This document shows positions 2,801 to 13,025 of a stretch of DNA of 28,027 nt, in pieces. Source of the DNA: a virus; the IMG/VR virus record IMGVR_UViG_3300038701_001567, positions 1-28,027 of that record. One strand, written 5' to 3'. The notes beneath the pieces are model-generated. The model worked only from the letters and a program-made list of their open reading frames with translations, searched no databases and was not told the origin of the DNA. Made by a program: the position numbers and the translations under genes. Position 1 is the stretch's first letter, and every line of letters starts with the position of its first letter.

Positions 2801-3168
2801 CCCCCTCCGAACGCTTGCTCAGCACGGATGAGGCTGTGGCGTGGCTGGCCCGGCTTGGCATCCGCACATCGCGCTCGGGCCTTGACAGCGCAGCTGCGGC
2901 AGGCAGGCTGGCGCAGATCCGCGTGCGCGGGCGGGTGCGGATCCTGTATCGCCGCAGCGATCTGTTTGACGCTTTTACTGATTTGGACCAACCATGCCCC
3001 TCAAACTCACAAAGCGCGGCACGATCTACCACCTCACCGGCTCGATCGCGGGCCAACGCATTCGCGAAAGCACGGGCCTTGACAACCGCCGTGCCGCAGA
3101 CGCGTACCGCTTGCGGCGCGAAACGGAAATCACAGAACGTCACGCGCATGGATACAGCACAACGCTGA
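2788..3168 (+). CDS. putative excisionase / helix-turn-helix protein overlapping int
   Basis: The 126-residue product starts with STDEAVAWLARLGIRTSRSG followed by LDSAAAAGRLAQIRVRGRVR and a YRRSDLFDAF segment. This is the usual pattern of excisionase or MerR-like small DNA-binding proteins: a helix-turn-helix, a basic wing and a closing aromatic 'DL.AF' helix. The domain ends near residue 70, but the frame continues for about 57 residues into the integrase gene (175-bp overlap) as Ser/Arg-rich low-complexity sequence, so the tail is probably not conserved. AGGA upstream (2775-2778) is a possible ribosome site for ATG 2788. Its position just before int and attP supports an excision-directing role. 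Domain call moderately sure, excisionase role inferred. Confidence 0.66.
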   Translation: MANLTPSERLLSTDEAVAWLARLGIRTSRSGLDSAAAAGRLAQIRVRGRVRILYRRSDLFDAFTDLDQPCPSNSQSAARSTTSPARSRANAFAKARALTTAVPQTRTACGAKRKSQNVTRMDTAQR

Positions 3169-4106
3169 CCTTCGCCGAGGCGGCGCTGACCTATCTGCAA
3201 GCAGGCGGTGAGGCGCGGTTTCTGGGACCGGTGCTGGACTATTTTGGCCCTGACACTCTTCTGACATCGATCGACAATGATGCCGTCACCCGTGCGGCGG
3301 ACACCATCCTGCCAGGGCGCGCCCCTGCCACCATCAACCGCCAGGTGATCACCCCGATCAGCGCGGTTCTGACCATGGCCGCCGAGGACGGGCATGTGCC
3401 GCCTCGGCGGTTGCGGCGCAGGCGCGAACCGCGCGGCCGGCTGCGCTGGCTTAATGCCGAGGAAATGGACCGGCTTTTGACCTGCGCGGGCCAGCTCACC
3501 TTGCCGCGCCACAGCACAGCCGAGCCCCACACGCGGGCCAAGATCGCCTTTCTGATCGGCAGCGGCTGCCGGACGGGGGAGTGTTTCGCCGCAGATGTGA
3601 AGGATTGGCACCCGGCCACGCGCCAATGGTGGATCCCCGGTGTGGACACTGGCGCAGGCAAGACCGCAGGTGCTGCGCGCATGGTGCGGCTGCCGCAGCG
3701 GGCTGTGGATCTGATTGGCGATCTGCCGGATCTGGGGCGGGCCTTTCGCACGCCTTACGGCAAGCCGATCACGCTGACCAGGGCGCGCGGCGGGCAGATG
3801 GCTGCGGCGTTTAATGCCGCGCGCGATGCGGCAGGTCTGGGACGGGACGTCACACCCCATGTGCTGCGCCACACATGGGCGACGTGGTTTTACGCCCAGA
3901 CACGGGATTTTGGCGCGCTCATTGATCTGGGCGGCTGGGACAAGGCGGACACCGCCAACCGCTATCGCAAGATTGCGCCAGATGATCTGGGACAGCGCTT
4001 GCTGGACTTTGGCTGGGATTTCCGGATTGGCACAAATCTGACACAAGCGGCGGGATCAGAACCAGAAAAACCCAGCAATGTCAGAGTGTTGCGCAAAGGC
4101 TCATGA
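2994..4106 (+). CDS. int: tyrosine recombinase phage integrase
   Basis: The 370-residue integrase would catalyse site-specific recombination between phage attP and a host attB. The N-terminal half holds an arm-binding-like beta segment (KRGTIYHLTGSIAGQRIRES) and a SAM-like core-binding helix bundle. The catalytic half shows the family residues in order: Arg193 (GSGCRTGE), Lys near 223 (GAGKTAG), His289-x2-Arg292 (HVLRHTWATW), Trp315 in GGWDK replacing the usual His, and nucleophile Tyr324 (NRYRKI). ATG 2994 gives the normal MPLKLTKRG start and lies inside the excisionase-like frame. The last 80 bp double as an arm-type attP site (4027-4046), and the tRNA-derived core begins directly after the stop. 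Identification is firm. Confidence 0.95.
   Translation: MPLKLTKRGTIYHLTGSIAGQRIRESTGLDNRRAADAYRLRRETEITERHAHGYSTTLTFAEAALTYLQAGGEARFLGPVLDYFGPDTLLTSIDNDAVTRAADTILPGRAPATINRQVITPISAVLTMAAEDGHVPPRRLRRRREPRGRLRWLNAEEMDRLLTCAGQLTLPRHSTAEPHTRAKIAFLIGSGCRTGECFAADVKDWHPATRQWWIPGVDTGAGKTAGAARMVRLPQRAVDLIGDLPDLGRAFRTPYGKPITLTRARGGQMAAAFNAARDAAGLGRDVTPHVLRHTWATWFYAQTRDFGALIDLGGWDKADTANRYRKIAPDDLGQRLLDFGWDFRIGTNLTQAAGSEPEKPSNVRVLRKGS
4027..4046 (+). repeat. attP left arm-type site (inside 3' end of int)
   Basis: TTGGCACAAATCTGACACAA here differs by one base from a copy at 4270-4289, in the same orientation. The two lie on opposite sides of the tRNA-derived core, as integrase arm sites do. Each 20-mer is itself a tandem pair of a GRCACAA half-site about 11 bp apart, roughly one helical turn. 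Confidence 0.68.
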
Positions 4107-4323: not shown

Positions 4324-4473
4324 TCACTTGCGAACCGTCGCTGCGTCAATCCGGCCCCGCATCCAGGCGATCATGCGCCTCTGGATGTCCGCCCGCTCAA
4401 GATCACCCGCCGCCTCATAGCGCGCCAGGGCGCGGCGGTAGATTTCCAGTTTTTCAGTCAAGGAAATTGCCAC
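4324..4473 (-). CDS. small helical protein (49 aa)
   Basis: A GTG start at 4473 lies two bases after the preceding TAG and gives MAISLTEKLEIYRRALARYE, continuing to TVRK. The whole sequence is predicted by eye as two charged helices rich in Arg, Ala and Glu, without membrane segment or motif. No clear Shine-Dalgarno sequence is present, so expression would depend on coupling to the gene before it. It is the last gene of the leftward small-gene operon and ends about 35 bp from the attP right arm. Function unknown; existence moderately supported by coding-like composition and tight spacing. Confidence 0.45.
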   Translation of the reverse strand: MAISLTEKLEIYRRALARYEAAGDLERADIQRRMIAWMRGRIDAATVRK

Positions 4474-4475
4474 AG

Positions 4476-4646
4476 CTAAAATTGCGGGCCGTCACCAATG
4501 ATGGCCCACAACTGCACCGGCCACGTTGCCGCCACCACCATGGCGGCTTCACGCTGTTTCGGCGTTGCCTCGGGATTGTGGATCGATATTGCGATTGCAA
4601 TTGCCCCAAGCCCCCAGACCTGCGCAACCGCACGGATAAAGCCCAT
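4476..4646 (-). CDS. small hydrophobic protein (56 aa)
   Basis: ATG 4646 starts a product beginning MGFIRAVAQVWGLGAIAIAI. Residues about 5-22 form a plausible membrane helix; a polar charged turn (HNPEATPKQREA) follows and then a second hydrophobic stretch VVAATWPVQLWAII. Two-helix membrane topology is possible, as in small holin-like or superinfection-exclusion proteins, but no family is recognised. It begins nine bases after the stop of the 41-residue gene; GGGGCCGG lies in the gap and may serve as ribosome site. Role inferred only from composition. Confidence 0.5.
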   Translation of the reverse strand: MGFIRAVAQVWGLGAIAIAISIHNPEATPKQREAAMVVAATWPVQLWAIIGDGPQF

Positions 4647-4655
4647 CACCGGCCC

Positions 4656-4781
4656 CTAAGAAAACGCGGCAACGCCGACATTCCCCATCCACACCGCATC
4701 AGCGATAAGCGCAATAGTTACCAGCAATCCATCCGATTCCTTGGTTTTCACACAGTACCAAGCCACAGCAAATGTCAGCAT
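4656..4781 (-). CDS. very small membrane-like protein (41 aa)
   Basis: ATG 4781 overlaps the stop of the upstream gene as TGATG and is preceded by GAGGGTGAG, the signature ribosome site of this operon. The product starts MLTFAVAWYCVKTKESDGLL and continues through VTIALIADAVWMGNVGVAAF. Two short hydrophobic stretches flank a polar KTKESDG turn, so a membrane hairpin is plausible. It ends in TAG, unlike the TGA-ending neighbours, and the next gene lacks the signature junction. Function unknown. Confidence 0.5.
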   Translation of the reverse strand: MLTFAVAWYCVKTKESDGLLVTIALIADAVWMGNVGVAAFS

Positions 4782-4957
4782 CACTCACCCTCACTTCTGT
4801 AGACCTCAAAGACCGTCTCCTGCGACGTGCTGCAATCGACAAGCTTGACCTTTCCGGCGTCACGCAGATTGCAAACGGCATTGTGACTGTAACCACCCGG
4901 CCACCATGTGATGCACCCAGCCTTGTCTATCGCCGCAAGAATTTGATCTTCGGTCAT
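4781..4957 (-). CDS. small winged-helix-like protein (58 aa)
   Basis: The product begins MTEDQILAAIDKAGCITWWP and ends YRSEGE. A first helix (QILAAIDKAG), a HNAVCNLRDAGKVKLVD segment that looks like a recognition helix running into a strand, and a second strand TVFEVYR give the outline of a small winged helix. This is inference from pattern; no specific family is recognised. It is flanked on both sides by the GAGGGTGAGTGATG junction: its ATG overlaps the previous stop and its own last codons (GAG GGT GAG) supply the ribosome site of the next gene. It could regulate this operon or bind host DNA. Confidence 0.6.
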   Translation of the reverse strand: MTEDQILAAIDKAGCITWWPGGYSHNAVCNLRDAGKVKLVDCSTSQETVFEVYRSEGE

Positions 4958-5151
4958 CACTCACCCTCGCCTTTGATGACATCACAACACCACGCCTTGA
5001 ACCGCAGCCGAGCGGATCGCGCAGCCGCAACCGTATGCCCCAACACAAAGCCACGGCAGCCGCATTTAGGGCATGACTTTTGCGGCAAACCCCACTGCGC
5101 GGGCCAATCAAAACCACAAGCATTGCAAGCGCAATGGCCAACCACGCCCAT
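4957..5151 (-). CDS. small zinc-ribbon protein (64 aa)
   Basis: The product contains CNAC-type and CPKC-type knuckles (Cys9/Cys12 and Cys27/Cys30, with further Cys7 and Cys32), the arrangement of a four-cysteine zinc ribbon, followed by a basic tail (ARSARLRFKAWC). It ends KGEGE. Small zinc ribbons of this sort occur in many phages, often binding nucleic acid or a protein partner; the target here is unknown. The second of two adjacent ATGs (5151) is chosen because it has the seven-base spacing from GGAGGG seen at other junctions. The ATG of the next gene overlaps its stop. Confidence 0.66.
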   Translation of the reverse strand: MGVVGHCACNACGFDWPAQWGLPQKSCPKCGCRGFVLGHTVAAARSARLRFKAWCCDVIKGEGE

Positions 5152-5213
5152 CATTCACCCTCCTTTAATTGCAACGCTGCGCGCCACATCCTCGAACCAT
5201 CACGCCGGAACAT
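5151..5213 (-). pseudogene. orphan 'LQLKEGE' 3' end, possible gene remnant
   Basis: Downstream of the 253-residue gene a frame ends ALQLKEGE, stopping at the same TGATG junction used elsewhere. The nearest ATG in frame gives only 20 residues (5213-5151). A longer version begins at GTG 5375 (74 codons) but lies mostly inside the 253-residue gene. It may be the remaining 3' end of a lost cassette gene, or an overlapping gene. A parallel TGATG at the end of the 253-residue gene opens an 11-codon frame only. Confidence 0.3.
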
Positions 5214-5961
5214 CCACGGTATATCTGTGCGTTCTGATCCCAGATTGAGGATCCCCGACCCACCCACCTTTTCGCCATTTCGGATAATTTGGGTTTGGGT
5301 GCTCCACCCTATGGCCACGACGATAGTGCCAAGCGACCGTTTTTCCCGTAGGATTAGGCTTGCCGTTACACGCACACGCCCTCTTTTTCCCCAACCGAAT
5401 TTCTACAAACTTGTGAATCGGAATACCCCTGCGCCCGCGTGATCGCGCTTGCTGCCTCGATGGCCGAATATCTACACCATGGCACAAACCGGCAGTTTGC
5501 ATTGCCTCAATGCAATACCAGGCCGAATTGATGGCACTTTGGCACGCCTGCGCAATCTCATCGGCACGCTTATCCGGAACCGACTTTTTGAGATTGACTT
5601 GTAAATCTCCGTCCTCAAACAGCATGAATTGCTGGCAACCCACTGCACCTGCCGGACCATACGCCAATAGGGCACCAACCAGATTTAGACTGCGTCCGCT
5701 TGCTGTCTTTTGCCCGCGCGGGTCCCGAGACAATGCAATTGAATGCGACTCAATATCTATCCAAGTGTGCTGCGCTGGCAGCTCACACGAAACTATTTCC
5801 GCAGAGCAATGCCAGTCACCGGGCATCGACGCTCGCGCGTCAATTATTGGCGCCAGAGCGCTGCAATCAAAATATTGAGCCCCCACCATAATTTCCCGTA
5901 TGAAACCTTGGACCTCAGGGAACAAAGGCGCCTCAAATGCCCTAATAGCCAAAGGTGTCAC
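5200..5961 (-). CDS. hypothetical phage protein (253 aa)
   Basis: The GTG start at 5961 overlaps the previous stop (GTGA) and follows a GAGGGCGGG ribosome site. It is the largest product of the accessory operon after the recombinase. No enzymatic motif is clear. The N-terminal two-thirds seem mixed alpha/beta. The C-terminal part (about residues 170-253) is basic and aromatic, with RRGIPIHKF, a TVAWHYRRGHRVEHPNPNYP stretch, PKWRKGGWVGDP and THRYTV. I recall similar WHYRRGH/'GGWVGDP' endings in hypothetical alphaproteobacterial phage proteins, without a known role. Five Cys residues lie in the middle and C-terminal parts but not in a metal-site pattern. Unknown function. Confidence 0.7.
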   Translation of the reverse strand: MTPLAIRAFEAPLFPEVQGFIREIMVGAQYFDCSALAPIIDARASMPGDWHCSAEIVSCELPAQHTWIDIESHSIALSRDPRGQKTASGRSLNLVGALLAYGPAGAVGCQQFMLFEDGDLQVNLKKSVPDKRADEIAQACQSAINSAWYCIEAMQTAGLCHGVDIRPSRQQARSRGRRGIPIHKFVEIRLGKKRACACNGKPNPTGKTVAWHYRRGHRVEHPNPNYPKWRKGGWVGDPQSGIRTHRYTVDVPA

Positions 5962-6155
5962 GACCCGCCCTCACTTGTGTTACCGCCCATATCATCCAGA
6001 CCGGCATAAAACTTAGTCAGCACCATTGCCGCAAAAACTGCATCACGATCGCGGCCAATCCCCTTTCCCAAAACCCGCAATGCCGTTTCGTCCTCGTACA
6101 ACTCGCCTGTTATCTGGCTTGCCGCCCCAAAAATCTCTTTTGCACTTACAGCCAT
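5958..6155 (-). CDS. small helical protein (65 aa)
   Basis: The ATG at 6155 overlaps the stop of the Acb2-like gene (TGATG) and follows GAGGGTGAG. The product begins MAVSAKEIFGAASQITGELY and ends TSEGGS. The central segment (GIGRDRDAVFAAMVLTKFYAGLDD) is helical and amphipathic. No family is recognised. The last codons form the GAGGGCGGG ribosome site of the following gene, a variant of the usual EGE junction. It sits directly beside a candidate counter-defence gene, which is the only hint about its role. Confidence 0.6.
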   Translation of the reverse strand: MAVSAKEIFGAASQITGELYEDETALRVLGKGIGRDRDAVFAAMVLTKFYAGLDDMGGNTSEGGS

Positions 6156-6322
6156 CACTCACCCTCGTTAATTGGAGGGATGGCGCGCCGCGCCCACATC
6201 ATCGCCTCATCAAGTTTTGTTTGCGCAAGCGCCCGCTCGCGCGACGGAGGCAGCAACTCAAGCGCTTCCATCGCATCTGCAATTTGTTCTTGGACCACAT
6301 GTCCAGCCGTCAAATCAGTCAT
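6155..6322 (-). CDS. putative Acb2/Tad1-like hairpin protein (55 aa), candidate anti-CBASS sponge
   Basis: The short product begins MTDLTAGHVVQEQIADAMEA and contains PPSRERALAQTKLDEAMMWA followed by RRAI. The pattern P-x-S-R-E-x-A-L-A-x-T-K-L-x-E-A-x-M-W-A-x-x-A-I is, as I recall, the hallmark of the Acb2/Tad1 hairpin family. Characterised members oligomerise and sequester cyclic oligonucleotide or cyclic ADP-ribose signals of CBASS and Thoeris defence. Residues about 8-24 and 27-48 form the two helices of the hairpin. It lacks the longer N-terminal helix of well-studied Acb2, so it is a minimal version and ligand binding is unproven. The start follows GAGGGTGTATG; the end is NEGE with TGATG overlap. 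Family call moderately confident, function inferred. Confidence 0.6.
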   Translation of the reverse strand: MTDLTAGHVVQEQIADAMEALELLPPSRERALAQTKLDEAMMWARRAIPPINEGE

Positions 6323-6531
6323 CATACACCCTCGCTTTTGTGCACCGTGGCGAGCACTATAAGTGCCTCTCCGATCACCCGCAGCAACTCACGCTGCAAT
6401 GAAAGCGAAAGATCCAGCTTGTCGCCCTCGCTCAAATCATCTTCGATGTAATCCCCGATCACCCGAGATATTTCGGACTCCCAAGCGGCCAAATGCCACG
6501 GACTTATGGCCTCATCAAGCTTGATCGGCAT
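6322..6531 (-). CDS. small acidic helical protein (69 aa)
   Basis: The second of two adjacent ATGs (6531) is preferred because GGAGGG lies seven bases upstream and the ATG forms TGATG with the recombinase stop. The product begins MPIKLDEAISPWHLAAWESE, is strongly acidic in the middle (DYIEDDLSEGDKLD) and ends in a hydrophobic helix (LLRVIGEALIVLATVHKSEGV). The final codons GAG GGT GTA supply the ribosome site of the Acb2-like gene. No family recognised. An acidic DNA-mimic role is conceivable but not supported beyond charge. Confidence 0.6.
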   Translation of the reverse strand: MPIKLDEAISPWHLAAWESEISRVIGDYIEDDLSEGDKLDLSLSLQRELLRVIGEALIVLATVHKSEGV

Positions 6532-7220
6532 CATTCACCCTCCAATTGATCATCATCAACAGCCGACACAGCCAGGCCAGGAAAACCCTTTCGCGCCCAA
6601 CGCCGCACCGTTTCAGCGCTGGTGATAGGCTGCGCATTCTTGTCAGCATTGTTTAAGCGCACGCGCAGATCCTCTGCCTTTATCGCCAAATCACCGTCCT
6701 CATCTCGCAACTTTCCACCCCGCTCAAGACGCCGCAAAAGCCCAATACGTTTAGGGAAATCCAATATCTTATTCGGCTGCCCAAACTTCTTTCCACGCTT
6801 GCGCGCCTCCATAAGCCCTGCCTTAGTGCGCTCAGAAATCATGCTGCGCTCCAACTCGGCAAATACCAAAGCCATTTGCAGCATTGCCTTTCCCATTGGC
6901 GTGGACGTGTCGAAACTTTCTGTTATCGAAACAAAATTGATCCCGTCGCTTTCGATTTGCTCCAACACATCCAAGACGCCCCGCAGCGTCCGCCCCAAGC
7001 GGTCCAATTTCCAGACCACAAGGGTGTCGTGCGGGCGGATCGATCGCAGCAAATAAGACAACTGCTTGCGCTTCATGGACCCGCCGGAAGCGTGTTCTTC
7101 GTAAATCCAATCCGGATCCACACCATGGCGGATCAGCGCAGCGCGCTGCAAAGACAAATCCTGATCGTCGGTTGAAACGCGGGCATAGCCGTACAGACGG
7201 CGCAAAGGCTCTTTGGTCAT
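6531..7220 (-). CDS. serine recombinase (resolvase/invertase family)
   Basis: The 229-residue product has the N-terminal resolvase domain: YARVSTDDQDLSLQR with nucleophile Ser16, then LVVWKLDRLGRTLRGVLDVL, the ITESFDTSTPMGKAMLQMAL motif and the ELERSMISERTKAGL helix E region. The C-terminal domain ends in a helix-turn-helix-like ITSAETVRRWARKGFPGLA (about residues 197-216). It is about 40 residues longer than small resolvases such as the Tn3 type. It would cut and rejoin DNA at paired short sites, as invertase, resolvase or autoregulator. It heads the leftward small-gene operon, next to a control region with dyads. Its last codons encode LEGE and overlap the next gene. The phage also has a tyrosine integrase, so this is a second recombinase. 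Confidence 0.9.
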   Translation of the reverse strand: MTKEPLRRLYGYARVSTDDQDLSLQRAALIRHGVDPDWIYEEHASGGSMKRKQLSYLLRSIRPHDTLVVWKLDRLGRTLRGVLDVLEQIESDGINFVSITESFDTSTPMGKAMLQMALVFAELERSMISERTKAGLMEARKRGKKFGQPNKILDFPKRIGLLRRLERGGKLRDEDGDLAIKAEDLRVRLNNADKNAQPITSAETVRRWARKGFPGLAVSAVDDDQLEGE

Positions 7221-9363: not shown

Positions 9364-9780
9364 TCACGGCAGATCTACATCTGGCGCACTCAGCCCAGCC
9401 GCGTCAAAGACACGATGCGCAAAGCCGTGTGGCTCCGTCGACGCCCCGACGACGACCAGCAGGTCTGACTGATTGGCCTGAGGCACCGTCTCGCCGGGAT
9501 AGACCATTCTCAGGGCCTGCCATGCGCGGGTTGACCCCGCTAGATTCACGTCGTTCCCCTTGTCCCAATCTGGCCGCGTTGGCTTTGCGTCCAGCCCAGA
9601 CAAAAAGGCCTGTGTCGTTGAAAATGCGGCGACGAAGTAGCTATCCCCGTCGCCGTCAACTCTAGTGGCAGTGAGGCCCGCCATTTGGGCGGTATCTCCT
9701 GCTAAGATGCACGACAAATGCCGCGCATCGTTTGGCATCGTACCCGCGTCAGGCACGATGATTGCAAGTGGTAGGGTCAC
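9364..9780 (-). CDS. hypothetical protein coupled to the large tail fibre (138 aa)
   Basis: The product begins MTLPLAIIVPDAGTMPNDAR and shows no known motif. Position directly downstream of the 1082-residue fibre, with an ATGA overlap, suggests a fibre assembly factor or fibre-associated protein; many phages place small fibre chaperones there. The sequence is mixed and soluble-looking with no membrane segment. The ending LSAPDVDLP is acidic. Identification by context only. Confidence 0.5.
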   Translation of the reverse strand: MTLPLAIIVPDAGTMPNDARHLSCILAGDTAQMAGLTATRVDGDGDSYFVAAFSTTQAFLSGLDAKPTRPDWDKGNDVNLAGSTRAWQALRMVYPGETVPQANQSDLLVVVGASTEPHGFAHRVFDAAGLSAPDVDLP

Positions 9781-12700
9781 GTCAGTCCCTCCATTACCCA
9801 GGATTCAACGTCAGCCAGCTCACCCGCTGTCAGGTCGCGATCTATGACAAGGATGCGGGGGCCAACCTCGCCGCCTAGCCGCCACCCTGCGTAGCCGGAA
9901 AAGAACAGATTTGTCCAAGCCGATACGTCCGCATTTTGAATCCGCACAGAATGCCAAGCATCATCGCACAGCGTTGCATGCAGTCCGTCGCGAGTGACGG
10001 TTGATTGGTCGATAAAGGCATTATCGACATACAAGTCGGCAGCGCCCATTCCACTTGCGGCGCACGTAGACCCGGTAGAACCATCATGCGCGGGGTGACT
10101 GTGCTGCGAGCCGGTCCCGCCCGACAGCAGCAAAACTTGACTGTCAGCGGACTTGATCGCCATAACAATTGTCATGTCCGACCCGAGGCCCGAGGACATC
10201 AACGTCAGATTGTCGTCGGTGCCGTCAAAGTCTAGCGAGCCGTCAGCCGTCAGGTCAGGCCGCTCGGCAACGACGGCCTGAGTGACGTGATTGCCATTGC
10301 CGCTTAGATCGTTAACCCGCGCGACACTGTCGCCGGTTGTCGCTGCCGTTGTCCCGCCGGTGTCCGTAAACGAGTTTGCCGTGTCGAGTGCAACGCCCTC
10401 CTCGCCGCCAGAAAACAGCGTTGCCGGGTCAAAGACACTTGAGGCCCCGGCAAAATGCGCCTGCAAAGCCTCAACAGTCGCGTCCATCGCCGCAATCTCC
10501 GCAGGCGTCAACGCCTCATCAGCGGCAAAAAAGCCAGCAATACTTGCGTCAGAATAAACACCGCCCGTATTTCCCAGAATCATCTGAGTGTCCGCAGGCG
10601 TCACAGACGCATCAGTTTCGCTATCCAGCTCGGCCCCGTTATAATCGTAAATTTTGACCAGACTTGCGCCCTCGCGCTGACCAACACGCAAACCGACATG
10701 CGCAACAGAAACGCCCGTGGCCGTTGTGTTTGACGTCTGGTGCACCTTGGCGCGCGTGGCGCCGCCGGTGTTGTTGCGCATAAACATGTGATCATTCGGC
10801 AGGCTTGTCAGCTCGCCTTGCGTGCCTGACGCATACGCGCTGTACCACAAACCAAATGCGCAGTCATTTTGCGGCATATCCGTTGACGGGTTGACCTGCA
10901 AATCCATTCCGCCGTTTGAAGACGCTTGCCCAGCCCAACCGGTGCCAGCACTCCAAACCCACGCGTTGATTGGATCAGGGGATGCATCCACCATGCTGAC
11001 CGACTGCCCCACAAGATCCAAGCTGGACGCCGTTGCGTCCCCCAGGCTTGCATACATGCGGAAGATCTTTGGCCACCAGGTACTGGCCTTGGCCGCGACG
11101 TAAAACGCATCCAAGGCGTCCGCGTCCGCACCCGAGATTGTGCCACCCCCGTTGGTTGTCACCTGCGCAATAAACGCATCCGTTTCAGCCTCATAGCTTG
11201 GCGCGCTGGCAAACGTGGTGACGGTCCATGTGTCCGACACGCCGCCAATCGTCAAAACCACGTCCGTGCCCGTCGAATTTGACGCGCTGGCCGTCTGGCG
11301 CACTTGGATTTTCTGATATTTGTCAACAAAGCCCGCTGCGCTTGTCCAATCCGTCACAACCGCGTCACTGTCCAGACTGTTCAAAGTCCGATACTCACCG
11401 CCGGTGATTGACACAGCCGCCTGCCGCTCAAGACCTGCGATCAAGACGGCCTCAGAGAGCACCACCGCAGACGGCGTGGCCTCGGTCACATCCGCAAACG
11501 CAAACGCATCCGGCACCGCGTCCAAGATGCTGCCATATGTGGCGTCATACGTCCCGTCATAGGCCTCATAACACCGCAAGCCCTTGCCTTCCGTCCACGG
11601 CTCTACCGGGTGGATGCTATCAAAATTGCTTTCGATAAAGTCAGTGTCCACCGCTGTGGCGTTGCCATCGCCAACCACACCCGCAAGCGTGGCCTCGCGC
11701 ACCTGCCAGGCGCGCAGGAATCCGGCGCTGTTTGTTGTGACCGAAGCCCCCTCATATCCAAGCGGGCGGATCCGCTCCGCAACAAAAAGACCCGTTGAAA
11801 CCCGTGATCGATACGCCGCAAGGAACGCGCTAAAATTGCTCGCGTAATTGTCGGACTTTGTTTCATCATTGGCGTCAGCCTCGCCCTGATTCCACAGCGT
11901 GACCTCTTCGCCAAAGCCCGCAGCCACCAGCGCGCGCGCGCGCGTCATCTTAGCTTCCAGATGCTCGAAATTGTCATTGCTTGTGGCCGGGTTCCAAGCC
12001 GTCGCCAAGTCCTGCCCGTTCTGGCTTTCCTTGACAATGTAGACATCCCGCATATCGCCCGCTTGGCGCATCTGATAGATAAATTCCGCCTCAGACCCCC
12101 AAGCCGTGCCGGTGTTGTCCGGGTCAGCATTCGACGTGATGTCGTAATTTTCAAACGTACCGGCGGCGATATTTTCCAGCGTTGTGCCGCCTGTGCCCCG
12201 CTCAAAAATCGTCACACCTGAAAACGGCGTGCCCGTGGTGTATTTCGCGGCCGGCGTGGCGGAACTGTTCCCGGCTGTCCGGCTGTTTGATTGACCCGCA
12301 ACAATGAGCAAAAGAGCCGCTGACGTGGTCAGCGCTGGCACAGACACCTGCGACCCCGCCCGCACACCAACCGGTGTCAGCGATGCAAAGCCCGCCGCGC
12401 TCAGCACGGGCACAGACACCTGCGATCCCGCTTGCACACCAACCGGCGCCAGCGATGCAAAGCCCGCCGCGCTCAGCGCAGGCACAGAAACTTGCGATCC
12501 GGATCGCACACCAACCGGCGTCAGCGTCCATTCATTTGACGCAAAGACCAAGGCAGGCACAGACACCTGCGGCGCGGCACGCACACCAACAGGCACCAGA
12601 CCCAAGGCGGCTTCCGGCGTATATCCGCCCGTCTCATAGACACGCAACAGGCCGCCGCGCTCATAGGTCCGCCCGTATTGGGTGACCACTGTGACAGCCA

Positions 12701-13025
12701 CGCGGTACGATTGGCCGCCGACACCGCCCGCCAGCCAAACAAACGCCACGCCACCCGCATAGCCGGATTTGACTTGCGTCAAACCGACTGGCGTGTGCCA
12801 GACCACAGACGCCAACGCGTCACCGTCAACGCCCAATGCTTGCGAAAAATCAATGCCGACATCCAGGACGTCTTGCGGATCCTTGATCGGCCACGTGCTT
12901 TCCGGCGCAAGCGCAGCATCAAGCACAATCCGGCGCGCCAACGGCGGCGCCAAAGGTGTGAATGCGATAGCGGGCGCAGACACAATTGGCCGGGCCTCAA
13001 GACCCGCAAGCGTCAAATCTGGCAT
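9777..13025 (-). CDS. tail fibre with SASA-type esterase and two lectin-like domains
   Basis: This 1082-residue protein is modular. Residues about 30-131 (ARRIVLDAALAPESTWPIKD...) look like the Ig-like fibre attachment domain of phages. Residues about 143-232 are four tandem copies of a roughly 24-residue unit (L-x-PVGVRAGSQVSVPALS). Residues about 240-490 match a sialate O-acetylesterase/SGNH fold: GQSNS with nucleophile Ser246, WNQGEAD (378-384), and DSIHP with Asp469/His472. Further regions resemble concanavalin A/laminin G lectin domains, one around 650-860 and a second near 900-1070 (VNDLSGNGNHV). It would bind and de-acetylate host surface polysaccharide. The ribosome site AAGGAAAAG is good. 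The product should be displayed at the tail tip. Confidence 0.8.
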   Translation of the reverse strand: MPDLTLAGLEARPIVSAPAIAFTPLAPPLARRIVLDAALAPESTWPIKDPQDVLDVGIDFSQALGVDGDALASVVWHTPVGLTQVKSGYAGGVAFVWLAGGVGGQSYRVAVTVVTQYGRTYERGGLLRVYETGGYTPEAALGLVPVGVRAAPQVSVPALVFASNEWTLTPVGVRSGSQVSVPALSAAGFASLAPVGVQAGSQVSVPVLSAAGFASLTPVGVRAGSQVSVPALTTSAALLLIVAGQSNSRTAGNSSATPAAKYTTGTPFSGVTIFERGTGGTTLENIAAGTFENYDITSNADPDNTGTAWGSEAEFIYQMRQAGDMRDVYIVKESQNGQDLATAWNPATSNDNFEHLEAKMTRARALVAAGFGEEVTLWNQGEADANDETKSDNYASNFSAFLAAYRSRVSTGLFVAERIRPLGYEGASVTTNSAGFLRAWQVREATLAGVVGDGNATAVDTDFIESNFDSIHPVEPWTEGKGLRCYEAYDGTYDATYGSILDAVPDAFAFADVTEATPSAVVLSEAVLIAGLERQAAVSITGGEYRTLNSLDSDAVVTDWTSAAGFVDKYQKIQVRQTASASNSTGTDVVLTIGGVSDTWTVTTFASAPSYEAETDAFIAQVTTNGGGTISGADADALDAFYVAAKASTWWPKIFRMYASLGDATASSLDLVGQSVSMVDASPDPINAWVWSAGTGWAGQASSNGGMDLQVNPSTDMPQNDCAFGLWYSAYASGTQGELTSLPNDHMFMRNNTGGATRAKVHQTSNTTATGVSVAHVGLRVGQREGASLVKIYDYNGAELDSETDASVTPADTQMILGNTGGVYSDASIAGFFAADEALTPAEIAAMDATVEALQAHFAGASSVFDPATLFSGGEEGVALDTANSFTDTGGTTAATTGDSVARVNDLSGNGNHVTQAVVAERPDLTADGSLDFDGTDDNLTLMSSGLGSDMTIVMAIKSADSQVLLLSGGTGSQHSHPAHDGSTGSTCAASGMGAADLYVDNAFIDQSTVTRDGLHATLCDDAWHSVRIQNADVSAWTNLFFSGYAGWRLGGEVGPRILVIDRDLTAGELADVESWVMEGLT
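12337..12600 (-). repeat. tandem 72-bp coding repeats
   Basis: Units beginning GGCACAGACACCTGCG on the + strand occur at 12337, 12409, 12481 and 12556 (spacing 72, 72 and 75 bp). They encode the PVGVR-x-G-x-QVSVPAL unit of the large fibre. Copies two and three also share GCGATGCAAAGCCCGCCGCG, so the array has duplicated recently and could vary in copy number. Confidence 0.72.

Follow-up and report, generated by a model that had tools for sequence, protein, structure and literature searches.

A hairpin-only member of the Acb2/Tad1 family, possibly a trinucleotide-selective sponge, in a coupled small-gene operon of an apparent temperate phage

The window analyzed here is an entire IMG/VR virus record of 28,027 bases. 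It encodes a tyrosine integrase (2994-4106), a DNA methylase, a phage lysozyme, a capsid protein, and a prohead protease, and these genes mark it as a temperate tailed phage or prophage, represented by most of its genome or by a portion of it. A search of the window for a tRNA attachment site found zero tRNAs. We claim no host from the capsid protein: its best matches, about 40% identical, are found in 116 of the 149 genomes of the family of a Paracoccaceae MAG that encodes a relative of the protein described below, and these matches may be mainly capsids of gene transfer agents. The phage has an invertase-like serine recombinase (6531-7220) in addition to the tyrosine integrase (2994-4106). 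Its tail gene region includes a 1082-aa protein (9777-13025, minus strand) with several copies of the repeat PVGV(R/Q)(A/S)GSQVSVP(A/V)L.

The serine recombinase, of the resolvase/invertase family (PF00239, E = 4.2e-43; PHROG 125, DNA invertase, 1.7e-57), is the first gene of a minus-strand operon (4324-7220) that further comprises about ten small genes. The gene of interest (6155-6325, minus strand) starts with ATG and encodes a hairpin-only Acb2/Tad1-family protein of 56 aa, MMTDLTAGHVVQEQIADAMEALELLPPSRERALAQTKLDEAMMWARRAIPPINEGE. The string SRERALAQTKLDEAMMWA followed by RRAI, in which a sequence-only reading of this DNA had recognized a minimal Acb2/Tad1-like hairpin, is found letter for letter in this minus-strand frame. 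That reading had placed a 55-residue protein at 6155-6322; an open reading frame does lie there, but on the minus strand, which had gone unstated, and its full extent is 6155-6325, with 56 residues. The plus strand of 6155-6322 was ruled out, as its translation resembles nothing of the hairpin protein. From stop to stop the open frame measures 77 codons, and upstream it contains no ATG, GTG, or TTG from which the protein could be extended.

The hairpin gene overlaps the upstream gene (70 aa, 6322-6534, minus strand) and the downstream gene (66 aa, 5958-6158, minus strand) by 4 bases each. At its 3' junction (6153-6166, minus strand), a ribosome-binding-like GAGGGTGA runs into the stop codon and the start of the next gene, and this junction is shared with viral contig L002. 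Six start sites of the operon lie in the 14-base GAGGGTGANTGATG or a one-base variant of it (minus strand, at 4779, 4955, 5149, 6153, 6320, and 6529). The coupling sequence takes the form GAGGGTGA(A/G)TGATG or GAGGGTGTATGATG; a search with GAGGGTGAATGATG, allowing at most one mismatch, found six matches in the operon and none in 100 shuffles, and the coupling sequence thus recurs from one gene to the next. The shared coupling sequence and the 4-base overlaps bear out the tightly coupled operon that had been proposed, and the two neighbors are present as claimed, except that each is one residue longer than the 65 and 69 aa given for them. The suggestion that these neighbors are themselves counter-defence genes is unsupported: neither matches a family in Pfam, PHROG, or PADLOC, and they have almost no relatives, the 70-aa protein none in the viral contigs searched and the 66-aa protein a single one, in contig L058, that covers the first 16 codons. 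For a 253-aa open reading frame no phage relative was found, and the operon DNA gave no match to isolated phages. Another gene of the operon (4957-5154, minus strand) encodes a 65-aa protein with a CxxC...CxxC zinc-ribbon-like pattern.

The window and L002 are similar in DNA (89.5%) only at positions 6149-6300, which comprise the hairpin gene with its 3' junction; the similarity to L058 is restricted to 6112-6167, the same 3' junction with the first codons of the next gene. L002 and L058 come from one metagenome and have flanks that are 87-98% identical; however, where L002 carries the hairpin gene and a 64-aa gene, L058 has about 110 unrelated bases instead (regions compared: L002 5990-6460, L058 3320-3603). 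The difference is flanked by a NusG-like gene on one side and, downstream, by sequence common to both contigs that leads up to the terminase genes. This presence and absence, together with the similarity limited to the gene and its junction, indicates that the hairpin gene is an accessory gene that is exchanged singly. Counter-defence genes are often exchanged in this way, but the pattern is not specific to them. At the repeated coupling-sequence junctions the DNA similarity to other phages is interrupted, and the comparisons suggest a cassette-like exchange of genes at these junctions.

The 56-aa protein almost certainly belongs to the Acb2/Tad1 hairpin family. In hmmscan it matches PF24729 (Acb2/Tad1 hairpin) with 44.1 bits (E = 2.3e-11, cut-off 27), its residues 13-49 aligning with positions 18-56 of a profile of length 58. 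It also matches PHROG 1454 (E = 1.3e-11, beginning only at position 34 of 81), PHROG 15810 (E = 1.5e-8, limited to residues 17-48 of the window protein), and PHROG 717. T4 Acb2 (Vs.4) matches PHROG 717 and PHROG 1454, and therefore these PHROGs of unknown function can be tied to Acb2. Among solved chains, the nearest in a single-sequence search is 9ptq, "Acb2 homolog 43" (E = 0.0022), with CbTad1 next. The window protein was combined with seven close relatives into a profile (eight sequences) for a search of the whole PDB (177,635 sequences), and the top eight matches (E from 2e-7 to 0.011) are all Acb2 or Tad1: 9ptq (2e-7), Tad1 (0.001), T4 Vs.4 (0.002), and five more Tad1 entries. The 14 control genomes gave zero matches to the hairpin family, and neither PADLOC nor NCBIfam returned a match for the hairpin protein. 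The PF24729 score and the PDB profile search thus confirm the family call of the sequence-only reading; the HMM search that it had suggested as a check yielded a significant match to PF24729 and no refutation.

AlphaFold2, run on an alignment of the relatives, predicts helices at residues 7-22 and 29-48 with a mean pLDDT of 86.5, reaching 96-98 across residues 11-40. The two helices are antiparallel in the model, as is characteristic of PF24729. A structure prediction had also been called for, and in the monomer modeled here it returns the helical hairpin. Based on DSSP and the alignment, helix 2 (residues 29-48; 6182-6241, minus strand) contains R29, at the position of Acb2 R67, as well as T36-K37, E40-A41, and M43-W44. 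In a Foldseek search of the PDB the first nine matches are all Tad1, including 8kbf, which was solved with cA3; their E-values are weak (0.26-1.0) because the fold, with its two helices, is so small. Among viral models the best named matches are "Acb2/Tad1 hairpin domain-containing" proteins of 50-113 residues, and therefore standalone short forms are already in the databases without an assigned function. Such hairpin-only forms are also catalogued, again without function, as PHROG 15810, a 55-residue phage family that includes gp10 of the Gordonia phage WilliamBoone; it has the size and hairpin-only layout of the window protein, but a different N-terminus.

We compared residues in an alignment of 34 sequences comprising the window's group, actinophage, Caulobacter phage, prophage, and PaMx33-type proteins, and T4 Vs.4, with PaMx33 numbering set from a PDB alignment; the six close relatives considered are those in L002, L003, L005, L015, L018, and L019. 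We take Y11 and K26 of PaMx33 Acb2 to be residues of the cyclic-dinucleotide pocket, and R67 to function in trinucleotide binding. The short N-terminal helix of Acb2 with its cGAMP-binding tyrosine (Y8 in T4, Y11 in PaMx33) is absent, the window protein beginning after that column; the column is a gap also in the six close relatives and two other short forms, and holds Y, F, or H in nearly all other sequences. The lysine of the first long helix of Acb2 (K26 in PaMx33) has no counterpart either: the column holds Q in the window protein (Q12) and in L002, either S or A in the group's other members, and K or R nearly everywhere else. The R67 column holds Arg in 32 of the 34 sequences, all short forms included (the exceptions are Asp in T4 and Lys in L039), and the T74 column (T68 in T4) holds Thr in 30, the whole window group included. 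The core TK-x-x-EA-x-MW is kept in the window protein and its close relatives, and Tad1-type proteins have the same (S/C)REN...T(K/H) signature. The N-terminal antiparallel beta domain of Tad1, which helps to build the gcADPR pocket, is absent as well, with no strands in the 56-aa model and no upstream start codon. In T4 Acb2, the substitution Y8A leaves the protein binding-deficient and unable to act, and T68M lowers the affinity (PMC12657230).

The profile start positions and the alignment agree with the earlier statement that an N-terminal part is missing, and they appear to narrow its alternative that the protein "may have lost binding": the Y11 and K26 positions and the beta domain are gone, and the hairpin signature is kept. 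With Acb2 (PaMx33/PaP2 p26, T4 Vs.4) the window protein has the PF24729 hairpin in common, with T4 Vs.4 the T, K, EA, MW core, and with PaMx33-type Acb2 the arginine at the R67 position. However, Acb2 has 88-94 residues instead of 56, and in the window protein the N-terminal helix and counterparts of Y11 and K26 are lacking and both the first long helix and the loop are shorter. Tad1 (CbTad1 7uav, 8kbf) is the best structural match, with a C-terminal hairpin that aligns across 38 residues, but possesses the beta domain that the window protein does not. The nearest solved sequence, 9ptq (76 aa, six chains), shares LP-GRE-KS-TKLEEAM and is about 10-20 residues longer. Neither the name "Acb2" nor the name "Tad1" fits the window protein, because one defining part of each was tested for and is absent.

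Acb2 forms a homo-hexamer, takes up cyclic di- and trinucleotides, and inhibits CBASS, and Tad1 acts on gcADPR and inhibits Thoeris. In both proteins, trinucleotides are bound at the trimer interface, apart from the pockets for dinucleotides and gcADPR (PMC12043709). The window protein keeps the hairpin alone, and therefore at most the trinucleotide site, which Acb2 and Tad1 have in common, would be kept; the Tad1 pocket domain is absent, so that gcADPR binding and inhibition of Thoeris are not expected. Our preferred proposal is that three hairpins would associate, with perhaps a pair of these trimers combining, after the pattern of Acb2 and Tad1; of the binding pockets, just the one for cyclic trinucleotides on the trimer axis would be left. 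The protein would then sequester signals of the cA3/cAAG type, not cyclic dinucleotides or gcADPR, and would weaken the action of CBASS effectors (NucC or Cap4, for example) or of type III CRISPR using cA3. It would be smaller than any characterised sponge known to us. That the window protein is a nucleotide sponge appears probable, and that it is selective for trinucleotides is plausible at somewhat below an even chance. The reading as a whole, a hairpin-only Acb2/Tad1 member that is predicted to be a trinucleotide-selective sponge and is encoded in a coupled small-gene operon of a temperate phage, comes near to being evenly balanced; the generalization that the standalone Acb2/Tad1 core would bind only cyclic trinucleotides, via the trimer-axis pocket, and would be spread as a single coupled cassette is put forward tentatively. 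Several observations speak against a trinucleotide sponge: T4 Acb2 is a working sponge with Asp at the R67 position, the constraint between the window and L002 is weak, and the hairpin also occurs in fusions.

Alternatively, the hairpin may be a module for oligomerisation or protein contacts that binds no nucleotide and has another role in the phage, for example in the regulation or scaffolding of a partner. In L019 and L062, a hairpin belonging to the same subfamily follows a distinct domain ("SHKKVWALKI...EEGYT", PHROG 11049) in a fusion, and a divergent hairpin is fused to this domain in L088; since the hairpin is also joined to an unrelated domain (L019, L088), it could be a mere assembly module, and the loss of the dinucleotide pocket positions would fit such a role. 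However, the short forms conserve the R67-position arginine and the TK...EA.MW residues to the same degree as full-length Acb2 and Tad1 do, and a mere helical contact would not obviously need them. We consider this explanation unlikely, though deserving of attention.

At five of 19 distinct loci, with the L019 fusion not counted, the PHROG 11049 domain is either fused to an Acb2/Tad1 hairpin or lies within 1.5 kb of one; L079, L080, L082, and L084 are the adjacent cases. Judging from its position, the domain may be a linked counter-defence domain. In L104, a single phage locus has two hairpin genes, one of the Tad1 type and one that is divergent and without the conserved arginine.

It is rather improbable that the protein, through a pocket built unlike that of Acb2, is a sponge for other or broader signals (cyclic dinucleotides, gcADPR, or another ring). 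Ligands do vary among sponge families (PMC12043709), and short members occur in very different phages (WilliamBoone gp10 with 55 aa, L102 with 50 aa), but the Acb2 Y11 and K26 positions are missing, as is the Tad1 domain that helps to form the gcADPR pocket.

A further possibility is that the gene is a decayed, functionless remnant of a longer Acb2. Relatives of the hairpin protein were found in 11 viral contigs, some of them mutually identical, and in one Paracoccaceae MAG. Close short forms occur in L002 (55 aa, 76% identical), L003 (62 aa), L015 and L016 (57 aa each), and L018 (56 aa); WilliamBoone gp10, L037 (59 aa), and L102 are less close. Longer proteins with the hairpin at their C-terminus occur in L005 (112 aa) and L019 (160 aa), and in the family of the L005 MAG, PF24729 occurs in 16 of 395 genomes, almost always in longer forms. 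Decay might be read from L021, L022, and L023, identical contigs in which an in-frame TAG (at about 3127) occupies the codon of the hairpin Trp conserved in relatives; it reflects either a broken gene or a recoded stop, and intact copies occur elsewhere. The pair of the window and L002 also evolves fairly fast outside helix 2 (dN 0.138, dS 0.285; few sites, weak constraint). However, L015 and L016 encode identical proteins although 11 of 171 bases differ, and L015 and L018 have a dN of 0.097 and a dS of 1.13; in this best pair the substitutions show purifying selection on the short form, and the selection is strong across L015, L016, and L018. The conserved N-terminus FTAADATAESIADAM, common to L015, L016, L018, and L019, recurs with the short form, and the window gene has an intact start, an intact stop, and coupled junctions. 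The short form recurs in several phages, the best pair shows it to be under purifying selection, and as an accessory gene it is carried by one of two near-identical phages and lacking in the other; we therefore regard it as not being a remnant, an origin that is very improbable. Finally, a chance likeness of a small helical reading frame, invited by a short and helical protein and a structure search that by itself is not significant (E = 0.26), is already refuted by the profile matches (44.1 bits to PF24729; E = 2e-7 from the family profile to 9ptq) and the diagnostic residues.

If the trinucleotide-selective reading is false, the case shows that a database entry called "Acb2/Tad1 hairpin domain-containing protein" is not to be taken for a counter-defence gene before its pocket residues have been checked. 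If it is true, the trinucleotide activity would stand alone in a protein of 56 residues, apart from the dinucleotide and gcADPR activities with which Acb2 and Tad1 combine it, and the protein would serve as a convenient small reagent for quenching cA3 while sparing cGAMP. It would also reveal which part of the Acb2/Tad1 sponges is their shared core.
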